A stretch of 64,000 bases of DNA from Gallionella sp. (GTDB lineage: Bacteria; Pseudomonadota; Gammaproteobacteria; Burkholderiales; Gallionellaceae), in the NCBI GenBank assembly GCA_022340615.1, contig JAJDNO010000007.1:61084-125083 (forward strand), read 5' to 3'. The number at the start of each line of letters is the position of its first letter. Position 1 is the stretch's first letter. The notes below the pieces were generated by a model. It did no database searches. It was not told where the DNA came from and saw nothing but the letters and a program-made list of their open reading frames with translations. Positions 34,029-45,433 of this stretch are shown here, one piece after another. The translations under genes were made by a program, and so were the position numbers.

Positions 34029-36062
34029 TCAGATCAGCGGTACGATCAGCAACGCGACGATGTTGATGATCTTGATCAGCGGGTTCACCGCAGGGCCGGC
34101 GGTGTCCTTGTAGGGGTCGCCGACCGTATCACCGGTGACCGCCGCCTTGTGTGCTTCCGAGCCCTTGCCGCCGAAGTTTCCTTCCTCGATGTATTTCTTC
34201 GCGTTATCCCATGCACCGCCGCCGGTGGTCATCGAGATCGCTACGAATATGCCGGTCACGATGGTGCCGACGAGTACGCCACCCAGCGCCTGTGCACCGA
34301 GTGTCAGCCCGACGATGACCGGCACGGCCACGGGCAGCAGCGACGGGATGATCATTTCCTTGATCGCTGCCTTGGTCAGCATGTCCACGCAGGTGCCGTA
34401 TTCCGGCTTGCCGGTGCCTTCCATGATGCCGGGAATCTCCTTGAACTGGCGGCGCACTTCAACCACCACCGAACCCGCGGCGCGGCCAACCGCTTCCATG
34501 CCCATCGCGGCGAACAGGTAGGGCACCATGCCGCCGATGAACAGGCCGATGATCACCATGTGATTGGACAGGTCGAAGGTCAATCCGGGATGGTCGGTGG
34601 AAAGCGCATGGGTATAGTCGGCAAACAGCACCAGCGCAGCCAGACCGGCAGAGCCGATCGCGTAGCCCTTGGTGACCGCCTTGGTGGTATTGCCCACCGC
34701 ATCGAGTGGGTCGGTGATGTTGCGGACCGCTTCGGGCAACCCGGCCATTTCGGCAATGCCGCCAGCGTTGTCGGTAATCGGGCCGTAAGCGTCAAGTGCG
34801 ACGATGATGCCCGCCATGGATAGCATCGACGTAGCGGCGATCGCAATGCCGTACAGGCCACCCAGTGCGTAGGCACCGTAGATTGCCAGACACACGGCCA
34901 GCACCGGCGCCGCGGTGGATTTCATCGACACGCCCAGGCCGGCGATCACGTTGGTGCCGTGGCCGGTCGTGGATGCCTGTGCGATGTGGCGCACGGGACC
35001 GAACTCGGTTGCGGTGTAATACTCGGTGATCCATACCATCGCGCCGGTCAGCGCGAGTCCGATCAGCGAGGACAGGTAGAGATCCATCGATGAAACCAGT
35101 TTGTCGCCTATCATCACGCCATTGCCCAGCAGCCAGGTTGTCACCGGGTAGAACGAGATCACCGCCAGCAGGCCGGACACCAGCAGGCCTCGATACAACG
35201 CGTTCATGATCTTGCCACCCGTGCGCGCATTGACGAAGAACGTGCCGATGATGGAGGCGATGATCGAGACACCGCCCAGCACCAGCGGGTAGATCACTGC
35301 ATTCGGTGAACCGGTAATCAACAGGCCGCCAAGCACCATGGTGGCGATGATGGTCACCGCATAGGTTTCGAACAGGTCCGCGGCCATGCCGGCACAGTCG
35401 CCGACGTTGTCGCCGACGTTATCGGCGATCACCGCCGGGTTGCGGGGGTCGTCTTCCGGAATGCCGGCTTCGACCTTGCCGACCAGGTCTGCGCCGACGT
35501 CCGCTCCCTTGGTGAAGATGCCGCCACCGAGACGGGCGAAGATGGATATCAGCGAACTGCCGAAAGCCAGTCCAACCAGCGAATGGGTGGCTTCGGTCGC
35601 GTTCGCACCCATCACCGTGGTCAGGAATACGAAGTAGCCGGTCACGCCGAGCAGCCCCAGGCCAACGACCAGCAGGCCGGTAATCGCGCCTCCCCTGAAG
35701 GCAACGTTTAGCGCGGCATTTAATCCTTCAGTGGCGGCCTGTGCGGTGCGCACATTCGCGCGCACCGACACGTTCATCCCGATATACCCGGTCAAACCGG
35801 AGAGCATCGCACCGATCGCGAAGCCGACGGCGGTCGGCCATTTCAGCGCGATCAGGATAACGATAAACAGGATCGCACCGACGATGCCGATGGTGGTGTA
35901 TTGACGGTTCAGGTAGGCTTGCGCGCCTTCCTGTACTGCAGCGGCAATCTCGCGCATGCGATCATTGCCGGTAGGTTTACCGAGTATCCATTTGATTGAA
36001 AAGATGCCGTAAAAGATTGCAACAACAGCGCACAACAATGCAAATCCAAGACCACCTGACAT
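34029..36062 (-). CDS. hppA: K+-independent H+-translocating pyrophosphatase
   Basis: This 677-residue polytopic inner-membrane enzyme hydrolyses PPi and pumps protons. About 16 hydrophobic helices are visible. The PPi-binding core [20 protein letters not shown], given here as its key part [13 protein letters not shown] near residue 190, is intact, as are the [16 protein letters not shown] acidic motifs. The segment [10 protein letters not shown] near 455 has Lys in the position that is Ala in K+-dependent enzymes, marking the K+-independent H+ type. ATG 36062 follows GGGGAGGTATC. It works with the PPi-type PFK at 28.6 kb to save ATP. Confidence 0.96.
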
Positions 36063-36190
36063 GATACCTCCCCTTAAGAATAATCAGCCAATCGCCCTTG
36101 CATAAAGTGCATGCCAGAGCTTCCACAAGCAACTACAGGCTGTAAGGATACTTCCAATTTGAAATAGGCGCCGTGCCTTTGTTGGTTATA

Positions 36191-36236
36191 GCGATATGCC
36201 CTTACGGGCGATAACGATGTGCCCTAAAGGGTTATG
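36191..36236. repeat. Two tandem short hairpins downstream of the osmolyte-type operon
   Basis: GCCC-TTAC-GGGC (within 36191-36210) is followed by GTGCCCT-AAA-GGG (within 36211-36236). The pair looks like an imperfect repeat of a CGATRTGCCCT unit. It lies in the 256-base gap between the glycosyltransferase stop and hppA, so a terminator or processing role is plausible. The rest of the gap shows the hppA leader only. Confidence 0.35.
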
Positions 36237-36318
36237 AGGCCGGCATTTGCATGGTGGGCGGATTTGCGGATCCGGATGTGTCAGCGCAGGATTTGTTGTG
36301 TGATGCCTGAGGATACGG

Positions 36319-37527
36319 TTATTTGTTGTCTTCTTCGACGGCGATCCTGAGCATTTCGAAAATGTCCGGGATGGCCGATATCACCCGGTTCCAGTTCGGG
36401 ATCAGCGGGGTGCTCATCGGGTTTTCCATGAATATCTGCGCGGCCAGACCGATCGCATTGGTGAAGGTTTCGACCGCCTTGGCTTCTTCGTGGCGGTCGA
36501 AATCCAGCCCGTTGATCATCGCGTCCGCCTCGTATTTCAGCAAGGTGTCTTCCGCCTGCCGCAAATAGGTCACCAGCAGCGACTTGAACAGACCGTCCGA
36601 AAATACCACGCCTTCCGAGGCGAGCGTGCGGAAGATCGATTTGCAGATATCGACTGCCATTTTCTTCAGCCCTTTCCCCGCATCGTCCGGAGAAAGCGCC
36701 TGGTGCTTGTGCTCGTAGGTCGCGGCGATGTCCACCTGGCAGACGCGGCGCGGCGAATAATTGCGGTGCACCTCGGCCAGCGAGCCGACTTCCAGTCCCC
36801 AGTCCCAGGGTATCCGGTTCACACGCGCCAGGTCGGTGGTCATGCAGAATTCGCCGGCGAGCGGATAGCGGAAGCTGTCCAGGAAAGCCAGGAATTTATG
36901 CTGCCCGACCAGTTGCTGTATCGAGCGTACCAGCGGCGTCACCAGCAGGCGCGTGACCCGCCCGTTCATCTTGTTGGACACGCGGCTGTAATATCCCTTG
37001 CAGAACACGAAGTCCAGATACGGGTTGGCCACCGGATAACACAGCCTGGCCAGCAGTTCGCGGTTATAGGTGACGATGTCGCAGTCGTGCAGCGCGATCA
37101 CATCCGAGCGGCCGCGCGCCAGAACATAACCGTAGGCCAGCCACGCGGACCGGCCCTTGCCTGGCTGCCCCACATCCAGTCCGTTGCGCGCCAGCGTCTC
37201 ATAGACTTCGGTAATCCTTTTGCCGTTGTTGTGGATGATCCTGACTTCCGTGGGTATCGTCGCCATCAGTTCGCGCACCCGCTGCAGCTCCTGTTCTGAT
37301 GCCTGGTCAAGCGCCAGAACGATCTCGTTGAGGTACTTTACCTTGGTCAGTTCCTGGATGATGCCGGGCATCGCCGGCCCTTCGAATTCCGAATACAGCG
37401 CCGGCAGCACCAGTGCGACCGGCTTTGTTTTCGAGAATCTGAGCAGCTCCGATTCCAGCCGCTCCAGCGACGATTTGCCGAGCTGGTGCAAGGTCGTGAT
37501 GATGCCGGTCTGGTAAAAATCGCTCAT
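36319..37527 (-). CDS. GT81-like glycosyltransferase (glucosyl-3-phosphoglycerate synthase relative)
   Basis: This 402-residue cytosolic glycosyltransferase of the GT-A fold resembles GpgS/MpgS enzymes that join a sugar nucleotide to 3-phosphoglycerate. Visible parts are VLPALYSEFEGPAMPGI (about 39-55), PGKGRSAWLAYGYVLARG with the acidic metal motif HDCDIVTYN (about 145-155), and the acceptor region YPLAGEFCMTTDLA followed by WDWGLEVGSLAEVHRN, which matches the GpgS pattern. The donor sugar is not fixed by eye. AGGAGG precedes the ATG. It is the last gene of the six-gene operon, with the channel-like gene 32 bases upstream. Confidence 0.75.
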   Translation of the reverse strand: MSDFYQTGIITTLHQLGKSSLERLESELLRFSKTKPVALVLPALYSEFEGPAMPGIIQELTKVKYLNEIVLALDQASEQELQRVRELMATIPTEVRIIHNNGKRITEVYETLARNGLDVGQPGKGRSAWLAYGYVLARGRSDVIALHDCDIVTYNRELLARLCYPVANPYLDFVFCKGYYSRVSNKMNGRVTRLLVTPLVRSIQQLVGQHKFLAFLDSFRYPLAGEFCMTTDLARVNRIPWDWGLEVGSLAEVHRNYSPRRVCQVDIAATYEHKHQALSPDDAGKGLKKMAVDICKSIFRTLASEGVVFSDGLFKSLLVTYLRQAEDTLLKYEADAMINGLDFDRHEEAKAVETFTNAIGLAAQIFMENPMSTPLIPNWNRVISAIPDIFEMLRIAVEEDNK

Positions 37528-37558
37528 GGCGGCCTCCTGATGCCGAATTTGCAGTCGA

Positions 37559-38263
37559 TCAGATGTGTTCGATTTCGTCTTTCGCGGCGTCTTCGCGTTT
37601 TGTAACGGCTTCGTTTTCGATCATTCGTTTGGCCGCATTGATGCCGCCGACCCCGAACGAGATTGCAAGCGCAATCACGATACCGCCGAAAACGATGGAG
37701 AAAGCAGCCAGTACGATGCTGGGGGCGATTTGCAGCTGTTCCATCACCATCGCCAGAATCAGAACGATCAGCAGCGTGTTGACCGCCTTGGCAAGCAGCT
37801 TTGCGTAGTGGAAGCCGCTGTTCGCGGCGGTGATCAGCACGGTACGGCTGATGAATCCGGAAATCAGGTAGCCGATGACCATGATCATCGCGGCGGAGAA
37901 CAGGCGCGGAATATAGCTGAAGAACTGCCCGACCAGCTGGTCGATCGCGGTTATCTGCAGCGCGTTCAGGCCGGTCATCAGCGTGACGATGATCAGCATC
38001 CAGAACACGATTTCGCCCAGTATCACCGACGGTTTGGCCCACATGTCGCCTTTGCGCATCAGCTTGGTGAAGCCCATGCGGTCCGACCAGCTGTCGAACT
38101 TTATCGCTGTCAGGAATTTCACCAGAAGCAGCCTGATCACCCTGGCAATCACGATCCCGACGATCAGGATCACCAGCATCGCCAGCAGGTTGGGCACGAA
38201 AGCCTTGAACCTCAGGAACAGTTCCTTCAAAGGTTCAAGGATAAGATCGAGAAAGTTTCCCAT
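37559..38263 (-). CDS. Mechanosensitive-channel-like membrane protein (conserved TM-helix type)
   Basis: This 234-residue inner-membrane protein carries four hydrophobic segments arranged as two repeats of the conserved TM helix seen in small MscS relatives: FVPNLLAMLVILIVGIVIAR near 24-43, and FFSYIPRLFSAAMIMVIGYLI near 120. There is a charged cytosolic tail (KRMIENEAVTKREDAA). The MscS beta-domain is missing, so it is not a full MscS channel. GGAGG lies before ATG 38263. It is encoded between two glycosyltransferases of an osmolyte-type operon, so a role in sensing or releasing solute on osmotic change is inferred. Confidence 0.75.
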   Translation of the reverse strand: MGNFLDLILEPLKELFLRFKAFVPNLLAMLVILIVGIVIARVIRLLLVKFLTAIKFDSWSDRMGFTKLMRKGDMWAKPSVILGEIVFWMLIIVTLMTGLNALQITAIDQLVGQFFSYIPRLFSAAMIMVIGYLISGFISRTVLITAANSGFHYAKLLAKAVNTLLIVLILAMVMEQLQIAPSIVLAAFSIVFGGIVIALAISFGVGGINAAKRMIENEAVTKREDAAKDEIEHI

Positions 38264-38280
38264 GTCACACCTCCAGTCAT

Positions 38281-39540
38281 TTACTTCCAGTGGCTTGCAA
38301 GATATTCCTTGCCGTTTTCAAATTCAATGCAGAGTTTTTCGATTTCAGCCTCGGCTTCCTGCTGCCCCATGTCTGCTGCCTGCATGATGAACGAGGCCGT
38401 CTTGCCGACATACAGCGGGGTCATCGACTTGATCAGTTGTTCGGTCGGCAACTTCTTGCTGTGAAACGCAAGCGCATAGTCATAGATCAAACGTGACCAC
38501 AGGCTGACCGGAAAATGAAAGTCATCGTCGCCCTGTGTGCCCAGCCTTTCGATTTCCCTGAAATCACCCGCTCCCAGGATGTCGACCCAGATTTCGCCCA
38601 GGTTGTGCAGTCCTTCCCGGAATGTGTTCAGCATTCTCGTGGTGTTGACATTGACCGGTTCCAGTCCGACGGAATATTCGAAGCCGAATGCCGGGACCGC
38701 TTCCGAGCCGCGTATCGGCATCCATATGTCTGCATAAGTATCCATCAGCGCGAAGGTTGCGCTGACCACCTGGTAGAGCATGTTGCTCAGGTCGGTGCCG
38801 GGATCCTTGGCATCATGAATTTTCGCGCCGAGGAACGACTGGGTGACCTTGAAACCATTCGCTATCGCCGTCGTGGTCATCCAGATGTCGATGCCGAAAC
38901 GCGCGACATCGGTTTCCCACACATCCTTGGTCAGGTAGAACCTGGCCAGACTACCGGAAAACCCGAAGTCGCCGCCGATCGGCTGGCGCACCCGCTTGCC
39001 GTAAAGCGCGCGGGTGAGCGGATAGACGATGCTGTTGGTAATGGTGCCGTCGAACTTGTGGCGGTGATACAGCGGGGCGACATAATCATGGCCGCCGGCC
39101 AGCACCGGCTTGACCAGCAGTTCGATCCATTCCGGGGTAATGCTGCGGAGATCGGAATCCACGACGGCACAGGCTTTTGCGTCCAGTGCATCGGCGATCT
39201 CGAAGATGGTCCGAAACGCGCTGCCTTTGCCGGGGATGCCGGCATAGGGGAATGCGATTTTCGAAACGGGCGCCATGCGGTGATGCAACAGGATCGCATT
39301 GAAATCGTCGATCGAGGTGTTGCGCACCACATCCATCGTCCCGTCGCTTGAGCCTCCGTCGGAATTGACGATCACCGCCTTGTGATCCGGAAAGTATTTG
39401 GCCAGTCCGGCCTGGATCGCGCGTACCACATGACCGATGGTTCGCGCATTATTGAAGCTGGGTATGCCGACGAGGATGTCGGCCTGCCCGATGCGTTCCA
39501 GTTGCTCATGTACTTCCGTTCTGAAGGCGGCGGTTTTCAT
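38281..39540 (-). CDS. GT2/GT78-like glycosyltransferase
   Basis: This 419-residue cytosolic GT-A glycosyltransferase opens with ADILVGIPSFNNARTIGHVV, the sugar-nucleotide strand. NSDGGSSDGT follows near residue 65, then the metal motif VDSDLRSITPEW (DSD near 135). RQPIGGDFGFSGSLA and ARFGIDIWMTTTAIANG resemble the acceptor region of mannosylglycerate synthases. GGGAGG precedes ATG 39540. The second glycosyltransferase of the operon lies one gene downstream, so the two may act in sequence to build a disaccharide on glycerate; the substrates are not proven. Confidence 0.7.
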   Translation of the reverse strand: MKTAAFRTEVHEQLERIGQADILVGIPSFNNARTIGHVVRAIQAGLAKYFPDHKAVIVNSDGGSSDGTMDVVRNTSIDDFNAILLHHRMAPVSKIAFPYAGIPGKGSAFRTIFEIADALDAKACAVVDSDLRSITPEWIELLVKPVLAGGHDYVAPLYHRHKFDGTITNSIVYPLTRALYGKRVRQPIGGDFGFSGSLARFYLTKDVWETDVARFGIDIWMTTTAIANGFKVTQSFLGAKIHDAKDPGTDLSNMLYQVVSATFALMDTYADIWMPIRGSEAVPAFGFEYSVGLEPVNVNTTRMLNTFREGLHNLGEIWVDILGAGDFREIERLGTQGDDDFHFPVSLWSRLIYDYALAFHSKKLPTEQLIKSMTPLYVGKTASFIMQAADMGQQEAEAEIEKLCIEFENGKEYLASHWK

Positions 39541-39562
39541 GGCCGGTTACCTCCCTGGAAAT

Positions 39563-41791
39563 TCAGTCAACTTGCGTGTGCGCTTGCTCCACTTTGTTTT
39601 GCTGCCGAGCCGTATCCAGCAGCACGATCTGTATGTCCATCACGTTGGTGCCGGTCGGCCCGGTCTTGAAATGGCAACGGGTCCCTGATTCACTGTCGAG
39701 CTTGTCGAAAAATGCATAGGAATCGTTGTTGCCCAGATAGTGCTGCGGATCGATGCCCAGTTTTTTCGCTTGCTCGATCGTGTCGCCATCGACCATTGCG
39801 CCGGCGGCATCGGTCGGTCCGTCGGTACCGTCGGTGCCTGCGGACAGCATCGCCACACCATGCAGGCCATCGACCTCAAGCCCGAATACCAGCGCGAGCT
39901 GCTGATTCCTGCCGCCCTTGCCGTTGCCATGCACCGTGACGGTGGTCTCGCCGCCGTATAACAGGCAATGCCGCTGTTCCGGTTCCATGCCGGCGAGTTC
40001 GTCGCGTGCGGCCTGCGCCAGCAACCTTGCCGTATCGTCTGCATCGCCCTGAAGTGTATCGGAAATTATCCTGGCTGAATACCCGAGCTGCGTCGAACGC
40101 AGCTGTGCGGCGGCCAGTGCCTGGTTTATCCCGGCGACGATCACGTTGCGCGTCCTGGTCAGGCAGGCATCATTTTCCTTTACGGTTTCCACTACCCGTC
40201 CGGCGATGCCGCGCTGCAGGTAGTCCGCGACGCGGGCAGGCAGTTTTTCAAGCAATCCGAATTTTTCGATCACCGCCCATGCCTCCGCAAAGGTCGAGTT
40301 GTCCGGCGAAGTCGGTCCCGACGCGATCACGTCGAGCGGATCGCCGATCACGTCGGAGACAATCAGCGTCACCAGTCGGGCGGGGAAGGACGCTTCGGCC
40401 AGCCTGCCGCCTTTTACCCTGGACAGATGTTTGCGCACCGCGTTCAGCTCGAAAATATTTGCGCCCGCATTCAGCAGCAGCCGGGTCGTTTCCTGCTTAT
40501 CCTGCAGCGTGACGCCTTCGACCGGTGCGATCATCAGCGCCGACGCGCCGCCCGAGATCAGGCCGATCACCAGCGTCTTTTCATCGGCCACACTCGCCAT
40601 GTCGAGGATGCGCTGCGTGCCCGCGATGCCGGCCTGGTTCGGTACCGGGTGGGCGGCTTCCACCTGGTCGATGATTGTCAGCGGCGCGGTATGCCCGTCC
40701 TTGACCACAATCAGACCGGCCGCGATTTTGTTGCCGATCAGTGTTTCCAGCGCCAATGCCATGCGTGCGGTTGCCTTGCCCGCACCGACCACGATGATGC
40801 GCTCGAATTCGGCAAGGTCGTAAGTTTCCCCTGCAACAAGCAAATGATCGTGCTCCATCCGTACCGCATTGAGCACCGCGTTGTAGGGATCGACCGCCGC
40901 GAGTGCGGCGTCAAAGATGCCGGCAAGTTCCAGACGGTGTACCGGCGAACCTGCTGCAGATTCGTCAGCCAGCAGGCTGAGCACGGTTTCGTTCCAGCCT
41001 GCCGGGCCGGGAAGGCTGGTTTTCAGCAAATCCGCCATGTCGATCCGGTTATCGAAGCTGCCATTCCTGTGTTTGACCAGCACCGGTTGATCGACTTCCG
41101 TCAGCATCGCCAGGTCGTTCAGGCTGTCGCCGAGCGCGATGCTCCGGATCTCGCCGAATTGTCTTTCGTAGAGCGCAATCAGCTTGCTCACTGCGGGCCC
41201 TTTGTCGTGACTGCCCATGAGGTGGAACAAACGGCCCTGGGTCCAGCGCAGCCCGGCGGCTTCGATCGCATCCAGGAAACTCTGGTCAGGTTCGCCGTCA
41301 AATATGAACGGCTCGTCGAAATCGCGCTGCTGTGCCGCGATCGCGTCCTTTTCGGCAAGGCCGGTCAGCGCCGCGACTTCCGCGACGCTCATGTCCGCAA
41401 AGCCGCGCACCTTTGCATCGCACTGCGCGCGCAAACGGACGAACTGTTTCCTGATTTCCCTGTACGGCATGCCCAGCCGGATCAGCTGGTATTCATTCGC
41501 CGGTTCGGCATCGATAGCAAACTGGAAATATCCACGCGGGATGAAGATGCCGCCGCCGTTTTCGGAGATGAACGGGTGAGGGTTGTTCAGATGCATGCGG
41601 CAAGTTTCAATTTCGGCGCGCGTTTTGCTGGAGCAAAATATTAGCGGAATCCCTTTATCCGCTATCAAGCTTAAAGCGGGTAACGCTGCCGCATATGAAT
41701 AGTTCGCCTCATCCAGCAGCGTTCCATCCAGGTCGGTGAAGATGATGGTTTTTTTCATCGCAGAGTGGCCCTGACTCGGCTGGCTGATCAT
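39563..41791 (-). CDS. Fusion of HAD phosphoglycerate-type phosphatase and MOFRL glycerate kinase
   Basis: This 742-residue protein starts with a HAD phosphatase (Asp20/Asp22 in TDLDGTLLDEANYS, then FCSSKTR, ENGGGIF, and GDSLNDLAML near 225) of the mannosyl-3-phosphoglycerate phosphatase type. From about residue 295 it is a MOFRL-family glycerate 2-kinase (VVGAGKATARMALALE, SGGASAL, NAVRKHLSRVKGGRLA, GGETTVTV...GGRNQQLAL, SAGTDGTDGPTDAAGA). The start overlaps the rhombosortase stop (ATGA); a second start at 41758 begins at MKKTIIF. Dephosphorylating a glycosyl-phosphoglycerate and phosphorylating free glycerate in one chain would link making and recycling of a glycosylglycerate. That link is an inference. 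Confidence 0.82.
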   Translation of the reverse strand: MISQPSQGHSAMKKTIIFTDLDGTLLDEANYSYAAALPALSLIADKGIPLIFCSSKTRAEIETCRMHLNNPHPFISENGGGIFIPRGYFQFAIDAEPANEYQLIRLGMPYREIRKQFVRLRAQCDAKVRGFADMSVAEVAALTGLAEKDAIAAQQRDFDEPFIFDGEPDQSFLDAIEAAGLRWTQGRLFHLMGSHDKGPAVSKLIALYERQFGEIRSIALGDSLNDLAMLTEVDQPVLVKHRNGSFDNRIDMADLLKTSLPGPAGWNETVLSLLADESAAGSPVHRLELAGIFDAALAAVDPYNAVLNAVRMEHDHLLVAGETYDLAEFERIIVVGAGKATARMALALETLIGNKIAAGLIVVKDGHTAPLTIIDQVEAAHPVPNQAGIAGTQRILDMASVADEKTLVIGLISGGASALMIAPVEGVTLQDKQETTRLLLNAGANIFELNAVRKHLSRVKGGRLAEASFPARLVTLIVSDVIGDPLDVIASGPTSPDNSTFAEAWAVIEKFGLLEKLPARVADYLQRGIAGRVVETVKENDACLTRTRNVIVAGINQALAAAQLRSTQLGYSARIISDTLQGDADDTARLLAQAARDELAGMEPEQRHCLLYGGETTVTVHGNGKGGRNQQLALVFGLEVDGLHGVAMLSAGTDGTDGPTDAAGAMVDGDTIEQAKKLGIDPQHYLGNNDSYAFFDKLDSESGTRCHFKTGPTGTNVMDIQIVLLDTARQQNKVEQAHTQVD

Positions 41792-42414
41792 GCGGCGCTT
41801 TTACGCGCGGCATTCCTGGGCATGAAGTTTGGCGACAGGTGCAGCAACGCAAACAGAATAACTGCGACAACGGCACCGGTCAGGTGGCTTAGTGGAACCG
41901 GCACGAAGTTCCCGCCGCCGACAACCAGCAGCAGGGATTTTCCCGACACCAGCTCGAACCAGAGCTTGGCCGACAAAGCTGCCAGCATTGCAGCGCACAG
42001 CCAGCGCCAGCTTCCCTGTTCGGTCATGCCCTGCAGGCACAGATACACGACGGCAGCGGTTACGACGCCGGAAAGGCCGCCATAGAATTGCAGCACGGGT
42101 TCGAACAGGTAGATCGCCATGCCGATCAGCGCGGCTGCAGAGATACACAGCTTCATGAAATGATGGTAGCCGCGCTGTTCGATCATCGTGCCTGCGATCA
42201 GGAACGCGGCCATATCCATGGCAAGATGCGCATCCGAGAGATGGACCAGGTTCCCGGTCAGAAGCCGCCACAGTTCGCCATGAGCGATCGCGGACCGGTC
42301 GTAGATCAGCAACTGTCCAAGCCAGGGCACGAAATGAACCAGCAGTGCTGCGGCGCAGATCGCCAGCGTCCGGACCGGCAGACGTGCTTTGCTCAGGAGC
42401 GCTTGCGCAGCCAC
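41788..42414 (-). CDS. rrtA: Rhombosortase
   Basis: This 208-residue intramembrane serine protease of the rhomboid superfamily processes proteins with GlyGly-CTERM tails. About six helices are visible. GELWRLLTGNLVHLSDAHLAMD near 46-67 matches the rhombosortase loop, the nucleophile Ser115 lies in GGLSGV, and the catalytic His177 in PLSHLTG. The gene overlaps the last 22 bases of the lipoprotein gene that has such a tail, so enzyme and substrate are coupled. Its stop overlaps the start of the phosphatase-kinase fusion, making it part of the same operon. Confidence 0.85.
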   Translation of the reverse strand: MAAQALLSKARLPVRTLAICAAALLVHFVPWLGQLLIYDRSAIAHGELWRLLTGNLVHLSDAHLAMDMAAFLIAGTMIEQRGYHHFMKLCISAAALIGMAIYLFEPVLQFYGGLSGVVTAAVVYLCLQGMTEQGSWRWLCAAMLAALSAKLWFELVSGKSLLLVVGGGNFVPVPLSHLTGAVVAVILFALLHLSPNFMPRNAARKSAA

Positions 42415-43292
42415 AGGAAACCTCCGCCCAGTCCGGCGAGCAGCAGCAGCGAGACCGGATCGATGGCGCCACCGCCGGTGCCTCCGCTATAACCCGGGGA
42501 ATTGACGACTTTGTATTCTTGCGGGCGCTCTTTGACCTTTTCCTTGAACTGCGTGAGCTGTTCGTTCAGGTTCACGATCAGATGTTTCGCCGCTTCGTCG
42601 AAACCCTTGCCACTGTCGATGCGCAGCTGCTGGCTCTGGTTGACCAGTGTGGCTGAACCCTTGATGCGGCTCAGGCCGGGTGCGCGGAACAGCATCTTGC
42701 GGCTGGGTATGTCGTAGACGACCGCATCGAGCATGGTCTGCGTGTCGTTCTTTTCGCCGGGAATCACATAGGCGCCGACGATGGTCCAGTAGGTTAGGCT
42801 CGCTATACCTTCATCGGTAAACTGTACCTGGTCGTAGGACAGCAACGCGATCACGTCCACGCCATACATGGTGCGTATCTGGTCGAGGTTCGCAAAACTG
42901 CCGCCCGGTGTGAGATAGACCGATGGGATGATCTCGATATCCTTGACGAATGGATATTCCCTGAATCGGTCGGCAACCGCTTTCATCAGGCCCATCTTGC
43001 GCTCTTCGGTCAGCGCCGGGCCGCCATCCATGTATCTCGGGAAAATGCCGGTGGATTGCCTGCTGCGTCCGCGGTACGAACTTTCTGCCGGTACGAATGC
43101 GATGCCCACGTGCAACGGCAGCTTGAGTACCGGGATACCGGGTGTGACGACAGGATCCTTGGTGTTCGGGAAAAGATAATCGACCACACTGGTCGCATTT
43201 TTCGTCGTGCCGGTCGCGCAGCCACCAGCCAGAACAAGGGTGAAAAACGAGCAAGCGAGTAAAAGCAGACGACGTACGTTGATGAGCTTCAT
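42393..43292 (-). CDS. Rhombotarget-type lipoprotein with GlyGly-CTERM tail
   Basis: This 299-residue exported protein has a signal peptide ending at a lipobox (VLAGGC, Cys at about residue 24). The body contains DYLFPNTKDPVVTPGIPVL, RFREYPFVKDIEIIPSVYL and DAVVYDIPSRKMLFRAPG. The C-terminus is GGTGGGAIDPVSLLLLAGLG followed by a basic LRKRS end: a Gly-rich motif, a helix, and positive charge, the classic GlyGly-CTERM signal. It should be lipidated at the N-terminus and cleaved at the C-terminus by the adjacent rhombosortase. ATG 43292 is six bases after GGGAG. It heads the six-gene operon; the 287 bases upstream hold no gene. Confidence 0.85.
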   Translation of the reverse strand: MKLINVRRLLLLACSFFTLVLAGGCATGTTKNATSVVDYLFPNTKDPVVTPGIPVLKLPLHVGIAFVPAESSYRGRSRQSTGIFPRYMDGGPALTEERKMGLMKAVADRFREYPFVKDIEIIPSVYLTPGGSFANLDQIRTMYGVDVIALLSYDQVQFTDEGIASLTYWTIVGAYVIPGEKNDTQTMLDAVVYDIPSRKMLFRAPGLSRIKGSATLVNQSQQLRIDSGKGFDEAAKHLIVNLNEQLTQFKEKVKERPQEYKVVNSPGYSGGTGGGAIDPVSLLLLAGLGGGFLWLRKRS

Positions 43293-43579
43293 CATGTTCT
43301 CCCTAATACAAAATTTCCGATCAAAGAATTTCGATGCAAAGAATAAATGAATACAGGATGGGCCAGGAATGCAAGAGAAGAAGAAGCTCCTGTTGCAATT
43401 CAACGATGCTGCAGTTTTCACAATTGCCGGTTGCCTATTCTAGCACCGGGAATCGGAGGGATTTTGATCGATGGTGGTGTAGTGGATAGTAATCAGGCAG
43501 CGACACCATCCTGTCGGCAGACTTGCCTCGATACGGATTATATATCTGAACTGTATGCCAGCCAGGTCTGGAGACTATC

Positions 43580-43987
43580 CTAGTCTTCAATAAGGGCGGC
43601 TGCGCCTGCCGCCGCGATCTGGCCATCCTGGAACGAACGCACGCCGCTGATCCCCAGACCGCCCACGACCACGCCGCCGATCTGCAGCGGTACGCCGCCC
43701 TCGGCCGGAATAACGCCCGGGAGGGCTAGGTGTATCAGTCGCCCGCTCAATACCGCATCCTCGGAGGTTTTGGTCGGTCGCTGAAATGCCACCGCCGCAT
43801 GGGCCTTCTGGATTGCCGTTTCGACGCTGCCAAACTGGGTGTTGTGGCTTCGTTCCAGATAAAGCAGGTGACCGCCATCGTCAACCACTGCGATCACCAC
43901 GCGCCAGTCGTTGCTTTTTGCTTCGGCTTCTGCGGCGGCGGCGATCCGTTTGGCATTTTCCAGCGTGAGTACCGGTTTGTGCCCCAT
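43580..43987 (-). CDS. GlcG/HbpS-like (DUF336) protein
   Basis: This roughly 135-residue cytosolic protein of the GlcG/HbpS family shows LTLENAKRIAAAAEAEAKSN, VVDDGGHLLYLER, and the C-terminal glycine-rich PAEGGVPLQIGGVVVGGLGISG, all typical. Members bind heme or small cofactors or sit beside glycolate genes; the role here is unknown. ATG 43987 is assumed, but a GTG at 44005 overlapping the adk stop is possible. It is the last gene of the exbB-exbD-lpxK-Trm112-kdsB-adk run. Confidence 0.8.
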   Translation of the reverse strand: MGHKPVLTLENAKRIAAAAEAEAKSNDWRVVIAVVDDGGHLLYLERSHNTQFGSVETAIQKAHAAVAFQRPTKTSEDAVLSGRLIHLALPGVIPAEGGVPLQIGGVVVGGLGISGVRSFQDGQIAAAGAAALIED

Positions 43988-44001
43988 GCTTGATGGCAAA
44001 G

Positions 44002-45433
<1,432 letters not shown>

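Follow-up and report, generated by a model that had tools for sequence, protein, structure and literature searches.

A candidate two-route glycosylglycerate operon in Gallionella whose MgS-like transferase recurs beside an MscS-like membrane protein

In bacteria, the matching of osmolyte synthesis to turgor is mostly understood via transporters and transcription. Among glycosylglycerate producers, Persephonella marina is said to have a single-step Ggs, and in Rhodothermus marinus mannosylglycerate is reportedly made by one route with free glycerate and by another with phosphoglycerate. Two pathways to one glycosylglycerate in that organism are the subject of Borges 2004, as listed among the references of PMC8490865. 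The locus described here lies in a window (the whole stretch of DNA analysed) of 64,000 nucleotides from Gallionella sp., on contig C19 of a genome of 2.27 Mb in 78 contigs; the named close relatives of the proteins of this genome are mostly Gallionella or Gallionellaceae. Four of six adjoining genes are read as a two-route glycosylglycerate operon, likely for glucosylglycerate, in which an MscS-like membrane protein (MSC) would likely tie a transferase resembling mannosylglycerate synthase (MgS), here called GGS, or its product to tension. About even confidence is placed in this reading as a whole. Compared to R. marinus, both predicted routes stand in one cluster, which also encodes a membrane partner and has its phosphatase fused to a kinase, and the sugar is likely glucose, not mannose. 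The predicted enzyme logic is the same as that of the single-step Ggs. It is also that of GpgS/GpgP, the enzymes named in PMC2874817. The gene set, its recurrence, the pairing of GGS with MSC, a residue swap at the acceptor site, the predicted folds and the separability of a neighbouring rhombosortase pair are established here.

As the original prediction stated, six tightly spaced or overlapping minus-strand genes are all present, and the gaps between them match. From the rhombotarget lipoprotein (RLIPO) through the rhombosortase (RSORT), the phosphatase-kinase fusion (HAD-GK), GGS and MSC to the GT81-like transferase, these gaps are -22, -4, 22, 17 and 31 bases. The four genes of the proposed operon and their main features are as follows.

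39563..41791, minus strand: HAD-IIB phosphatase/glycerate-kinase fusion (HAD-GK), 742 amino acids, likely true start Met12 at 41758
40976..41746, minus strand: HAD phosphatase domain, MPGP family (TIGR01486), residues 16-272, catalytic motifs kept
39623..40927, minus strand: class-II DUF4147/MOFRL glycerate-kinase domain, residues 289-723, matching structure 2b8n
38281..39540, minus strand: GGS-like glycosyltransferase, 419 amino acids, mannosylglycerate-synthase-like, predicted direct glycosylglycerate synthase
39151..39159, minus strand: DxD metal motif of GGS, D128 and D130
39037..39048, minus strand: G165-T166-I167-T168 of GGS, aligned to the acceptor residues of MtGpgS
37559..38263, minus strand: MSC, 234-amino-acid membrane protein with two PF05552 stretches, MscS transmembrane-like hairpins
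37562..37579, minus strand: C-terminal tail D-E-I-E-H-I of MSC
36319..37527, minus strand: GT81-like transferase of the glucosyl-3-phosphoglycerate-synthase type, 402 amino acids (NF040724 profile; GpgS/MpgS structures)

Relatives of GGS were sought by scanning a genome collection with a GGS alignment. At least 549 were found, and only the best 80 loci, the closest, were kept; all open reading frames of these loci were searched with the window proteins, and the counts below refer to the examined stretches, which vary in length (at least 5 kb upstream of GGS in 62 of the 80). By record name, the loci belong to Nitrospirota (36), Pseudomonadota (19), Thermodesulfobacteriota (9), Myxococcota (3), Acidobacteriota (3) and Aminicenantota (1), with 9 unassigned. 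In 78 of the 80 loci the gene right after GGS, on the same strand, is MSC; one exception (L052) stops at a contig edge, and the other (L056) has other genes after GGS. MSC is the most constant partner of GGS, one of the two transferases, a point missing from the original prediction. Within the same loci the GT81-like gene was found in 47, the HAD domain in 35, the kinase in 29 and the HAD-kinase fusion in 12. The HAD, GGS, MSC and GT81-like genes share a strand and lie no more than 4.5 kb from GGS in 23 loci; in 32, all four occur anywhere in the examined stretch. Most loci named Gallionella, Sulfuricella or Rhodoferax show the order HAD(-kinase), GGS, MSC, GT81-like. As far as these four genes are concerned, the expectation that the set would be conserved together is borne out; for the two sorting genes it fails. 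Tree distances of GGS and MSC correlate (Pearson 0.82, 78 taxa), and those of HAD, kinase and GT81-like among themselves at 0.92-0.97; the GGS-MSC correlation fits co-inheritance and is not special.

In many more distant loci, GGS-MSC follows TreY, TreZ, TreT-like, GlgC-like or GH57-like genes, and in others it lies near MscS-like, potassium/proton-antiporter-like and calcium/sodium-antiporter-like genes. These neighbour families were each named by one representative, of which those for TreY, TreZ and the potassium/proton antiporter passed the profile cut-off and those for GlgC, TreT, MscS and the calcium/sodium antiporter failed it; the GH57 label was assigned by us to a family that has no NCBIfam match. 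A 228-amino-acid protein (L079:653-1339), also without an NCBIfam match, recurs among the 80 loci: 10 have it, and in 8 of these a TreT-like gene comes next.

Full-length GGS (74-100% identical) was found in 10 of 399 genomes of the order, and the same 10 carry MSC at more than 300 bits at adjacent coordinates. The next-best MSC match reaches 189 bits, and the MSC profile matched at some level in 103 of the 399; none of 20 loci with such weaker matches shows GGS within about 1.5 kb, and what lies around them differs from locus to locus. No MSC match was found in any of the 10 other genomes of the genus searched, so that the unit is patchily distributed. Of the 274 genomes searched in the class, the own genome alone matches GGS over its length, two others giving short, weak matches, and among 398 genomes of the phylum the GGS profile gave a full-length match in the own genome only, the other 10 being short. 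A plasmid search with GGS gave 4 distant records, and the gene neighbours of one of them (L152, below) were read.

The profiles and folds of the enzymes point to glycosylglycerate synthesis. The GT81-like protein matches the NF040724 GpgS profile at 358.4 bits over positions 2-399 of 402, and its profile matches GpgS/MpgS structures. Its DxD motif is kept in 43/43 aligned sequences; in the acceptor motif Gly-Arg-x-Thr, Gly and Arg are kept in 43/43 and Thr in 42/43. The HAD domain passes TIGR01486 (228 bits, cut-off 164.75), scores 216.1 bits against the strict mannosyl-3-phosphoglycerate phosphatase family TIGR02461, under its cut-off of 244.35, and retains the two Asp of DxD as well as the two of GDxxND in 35/35 rows. 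The kinase domain is of the class II glycerate 2-kinase type, with DUF4147 at 282 bits, MOFRL at 134 bits and a match to structure 2b8n at E 1.1e-88. DNA similarity of the window to its nearest relative, locus L031, begins at 41758, and Met12 of HAD-GK is likely the true start; the 4-base overlap with RSORT would then turn into a gap of 29. In three metagenome-assembled genomes named Rhodoferax (L044-L046), the order is HAD-GGS-MSC-GT81, with no kinase found in the examined stretch. From these, the kinase may be dispensable.

GGS, GT2-like by family, is predicted to have a GT78 fold, a GT-A domain followed by a C-terminal helical domain as in 2bo4/2bo7, and its closest modelled fold is a direct glycerate transferase, the MgS of R. 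marinus (GT78), with which it shares 17% identity by structural alignment. A further feature of GGS is that its gene adjoins that of an MscS-like protein. The window protein has no match to Pfam MGS_GT (PF21969) at E<=1 and falls outside that family by this measure; one relative (P0099) barely passes (27.9 against 27), and other relatives carry a precomputed PF21969 domain. The DxD motif is kept in 81/81. G165-T166-I167-T168 aligns with G184-R185-V186-T187 of MtGpgS, so that Arg is replaced by Thr, again in 81/81. With the roles of the acceptor residues taken from the available parts of PMC2581804, in which an MgS-D-glycerate complex is described, and PMC7185993, Thr166-Ile167-Thr168 appears compatible with a glycerate acceptor. 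Among the matches listed, JGI annotates 7 of 120 GGS relatives as 'glucosylglycerate synthase'. Across the six proteins, the family calls include a weak match to PF00535; an ordinary GT2 cell-wall enzyme was considered for GGS and ruled out by fold rank and acceptor motif.

MSC contains two PF05552 stretches, apparently a duplicated hairpin, which match the transmembrane pore hairpin of MscS. It shares this hairpin with MscS and with small MscS homologues of the CmpX type, and differs from them in the missing beta domain, the apparent duplication, a special C-terminal tail and the close pairing with one synthase. CmpX belongs to PF05552. Members of the MSC family are 215-278 amino acids long, except one of 97 cut by a contig end. 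An acidic, His-containing tail pattern, defined after inspection of the family, is present in 61 of the 78 GGS-linked proteins, with 17 missing it, and in 0/15 recovered sister proteins. The sister MscS-like proteins (L162-L181; open reading frames of 222-305 amino acids) lie in other genomes of the order among varying neighbours, and a second, more distant MSC-like protein is encoded in the same genome (G000:C55:32543-33169, 82.6 bits).

In the proposed system, the GT81-like enzyme would attach a sugar to 3-phosphoglycerate, after which the HAD domain would take the phosphate off, while GGS would join the sugar to free D-glycerate in a single step. The fused kinase would convert free glycerate to 2-phosphoglycerate as salvage. 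Glucose is the favoured sugar, because of the GpgS-type profile and because 10 of the 80 loci have a GlgC-like gene immediately upstream of GGS. For MSC, the prediction is an inner-membrane position with a cytoplasmic C-terminal tail, which would dock the synthase or a control partner. A stronger form of this proposal is put forward tentatively, at well below even confidence: MSC would be a turgor sensor whose conserved tail docks the MgS-like enzyme, tension would switch osmolyte synthesis directly, and this one-step post-translational unit would be common to Nitrospirota, desulfobacteria, Acidobacteriota, Myxococcota and Gallionella-type bacteria. CmpX, which is reported in PMC10965496 to regulate a sensor kinase, offers a precedent for such regulation.

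Several points weigh against this reading. The GT81-like protein stays under the equivalog cut-off of NF040724 (700 bits), and the kinase, at 225.7 bits, under that of NF041176 (550). For its glycerate, GGS would face competition from the kinase. The genome carries genes both for GlgC (ADP-glucose) and for GDP-mannose synthesis, so donor supply does not discriminate between the sugars. The available part of PMC7185993 places GT78 among families with phosphate-linked acceptors, against free glycerate as the consequence of an MgS fold. For MSC, no Pfam channel family other than PF05552 was found, the model is all-helical without the MscS beta domain, the score against channel family NF033912 (95.9 bits) is just below the cut-off of 100, a Foldseek search gave no match at E <0.001, and in structure comparison unrelated helical proteins score as high as MscS, one of them ranking first. 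The after-the-fact tail pattern and the restriction to the closest loci count here as well. Additionally, GGS occurs without MSC in L056, and on a Halorussus salilacus plasmid (L152) a 33%-identical relative lies beside a methyltransferase gene, with no MSC annotated.

The two upstream genes and the flanks of the site are listed below.

42393..43292, minus strand: rhombotarget lipoprotein (RLIPO), neighbour outside the recurring unit
41788..42414, minus strand: rhombosortase (RSORT), neighbour outside the recurring unit
34029..36062, minus strand: membrane pyrophosphatase, flanking the insertion site on the right
43580..44655, minus strand: adenylate kinase gene and HbpS-like gene, flanking the insertion site on the left

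RSORT scores 116 bits against TIGR03902, above cut-off, with G-L-S-G at 113-116 and His177 present. RLIPO scores 324 bits against TIGR04179, also above cut-off, with a lipobox-like N-terminus and a GlyGly C-terminal tail. The protease adjoins its likely target as a rhombosortase system, as in the rhombosortase/GlyGly-CTERM pairs of PMC3237569, whose available text already describes dedicated neighbours of this kind; the pair itself adds nothing new, and it lies beside osmolyte genes only in this genome among the loci examined. At the same site in L031, the four-gene operon begins 193 bases after the hbpS-like gene without the pair. In same-genus relatives the adk-hbpS-like block adjoins the pyrophosphatase gene and the operon is missing: with about 1.5 kb examined on each side, both flank blocks are present in 9 of 18 non-own loci, and operon DNA was found by blastn in 0/18. 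Read at larger scale, L138-L140 have adk, the hbpS-like gene and the pyrophosphatase gene one after another, and L141 has the pyrophosphatase gene in 13 kb without adk, hbpS-like or any operon gene. Of 60 genomes of the family, 3 carry the lipoprotein: the own genome, G661 and G678, and in the latter two a rhomboid-type gene follows it. In G661 it lies on a different contig from the osmolyte operon, and in G678 no MSC was found. On G661 L135:6409-8765, two tandem rhombotarget lipoprotein genes precede one rhombosortase, and the profile match to the first of them crosses stop codons.

Single-operon transcription is suggested by the gene spacing. A scan for promoter-like sites found 2 against 3.8 expected, both on the plus strand and none on the minus strand, including the intergenic stretches 36063-36318 and 43293-43579 that flank the inserted block. 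Terminator-like sites numbered 12 against 7.0 (standard deviation 2.3) expected; the only three on the minus strand fall within RLIPO and the GT81-like gene, and none between the genes.

As an alternative, MSC could be a plain release valve: on downshock, osmolyte would leave through this minimal MscS-like pore, and the synthase would be untouched. This is possible though doubtful. The MscS hairpin would suit such a role, as would some distant loci in which full MscS-like and both antiporter-like genes form an osmotic-shock set; in some of these same loci, however, the full MscS-like genes make a second valve look redundant. Moreover, MSC pairs with one enzyme and not with osmolyte synthesis generally, as the counts for GGS-adjacent MSC (78) and the GT81-like gene (47) indicate, and the GGS-paired form has a tail that the 15 sister proteins lack. 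The two transferases might also act in series: the glycosylglycerate made by the GT81-like enzyme and HAD would receive another sugar from GGS and so become a di-glycosyl glycerate, similar to mannosylglucosylglycerate. This is unlikely: although both transferases and a phosphatase share one cluster, and a glycerate kinase is otherwise odd beside an enzyme requiring free glycerate, 33 of the 80 GGS loci have no GT81-like gene in the examined stretch (some stretches are short), and the closest fold of GGS is that of a direct glycerate transferase.

It is quite improbable that GGS makes a glucosylglycerate primer for glucan. GpgS does start mycobacterial methylglucose lipopolysaccharide synthesis, according to the available parts of PMC2581804 and PMC2674218, and besides the loci with GlgC-like genes, more have trehalose-from-glucan genes. 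Nevertheless, Gallionella-type operons recur only with HAD(-kinase), MSC and GT81-like genes and no recurring glucan-synthase family, and several neighbours in other loci are osmotic and ion genes. The original prediction also gave the osmolyte operon its own surface-sorting pair. Apart from the overlapping genes in the window, the evidence runs against this: the pair is present in 0/80 related loci and is absent from the more than 2.5 kb examined upstream of the fusion in 10 of the 12 fusion-type operons. Its position apart from such an operon in G661 and G678, together with the L031 operon without it, indicates a separable module that happens to lie upstream here; that it belongs to the operon is very improbable indeed. 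The original interpretation is thus upheld in part, its glycosylglycerate enzymes being supported by TIGR01486, the GpgS/MpgS structure matches and the MgS-like fold, and its sorting pair dropping out.

In the open-licence PMC literature, outside which most subscription papers lie, no paper was found that describes the pairing of a glycosylglycerate synthase with a mechanosensitive protein. Many GGS relatives now carry the name 'glycosyltransferase involved in cell wall biosynthesis', and GGS-MSC would serve as a marker for glycosylglycerate synthesis in uncultured groups. The inheritance of a synthase with one particular MscS-like protein across phyla would make a direct link from synthesis to tension testable with two genes.

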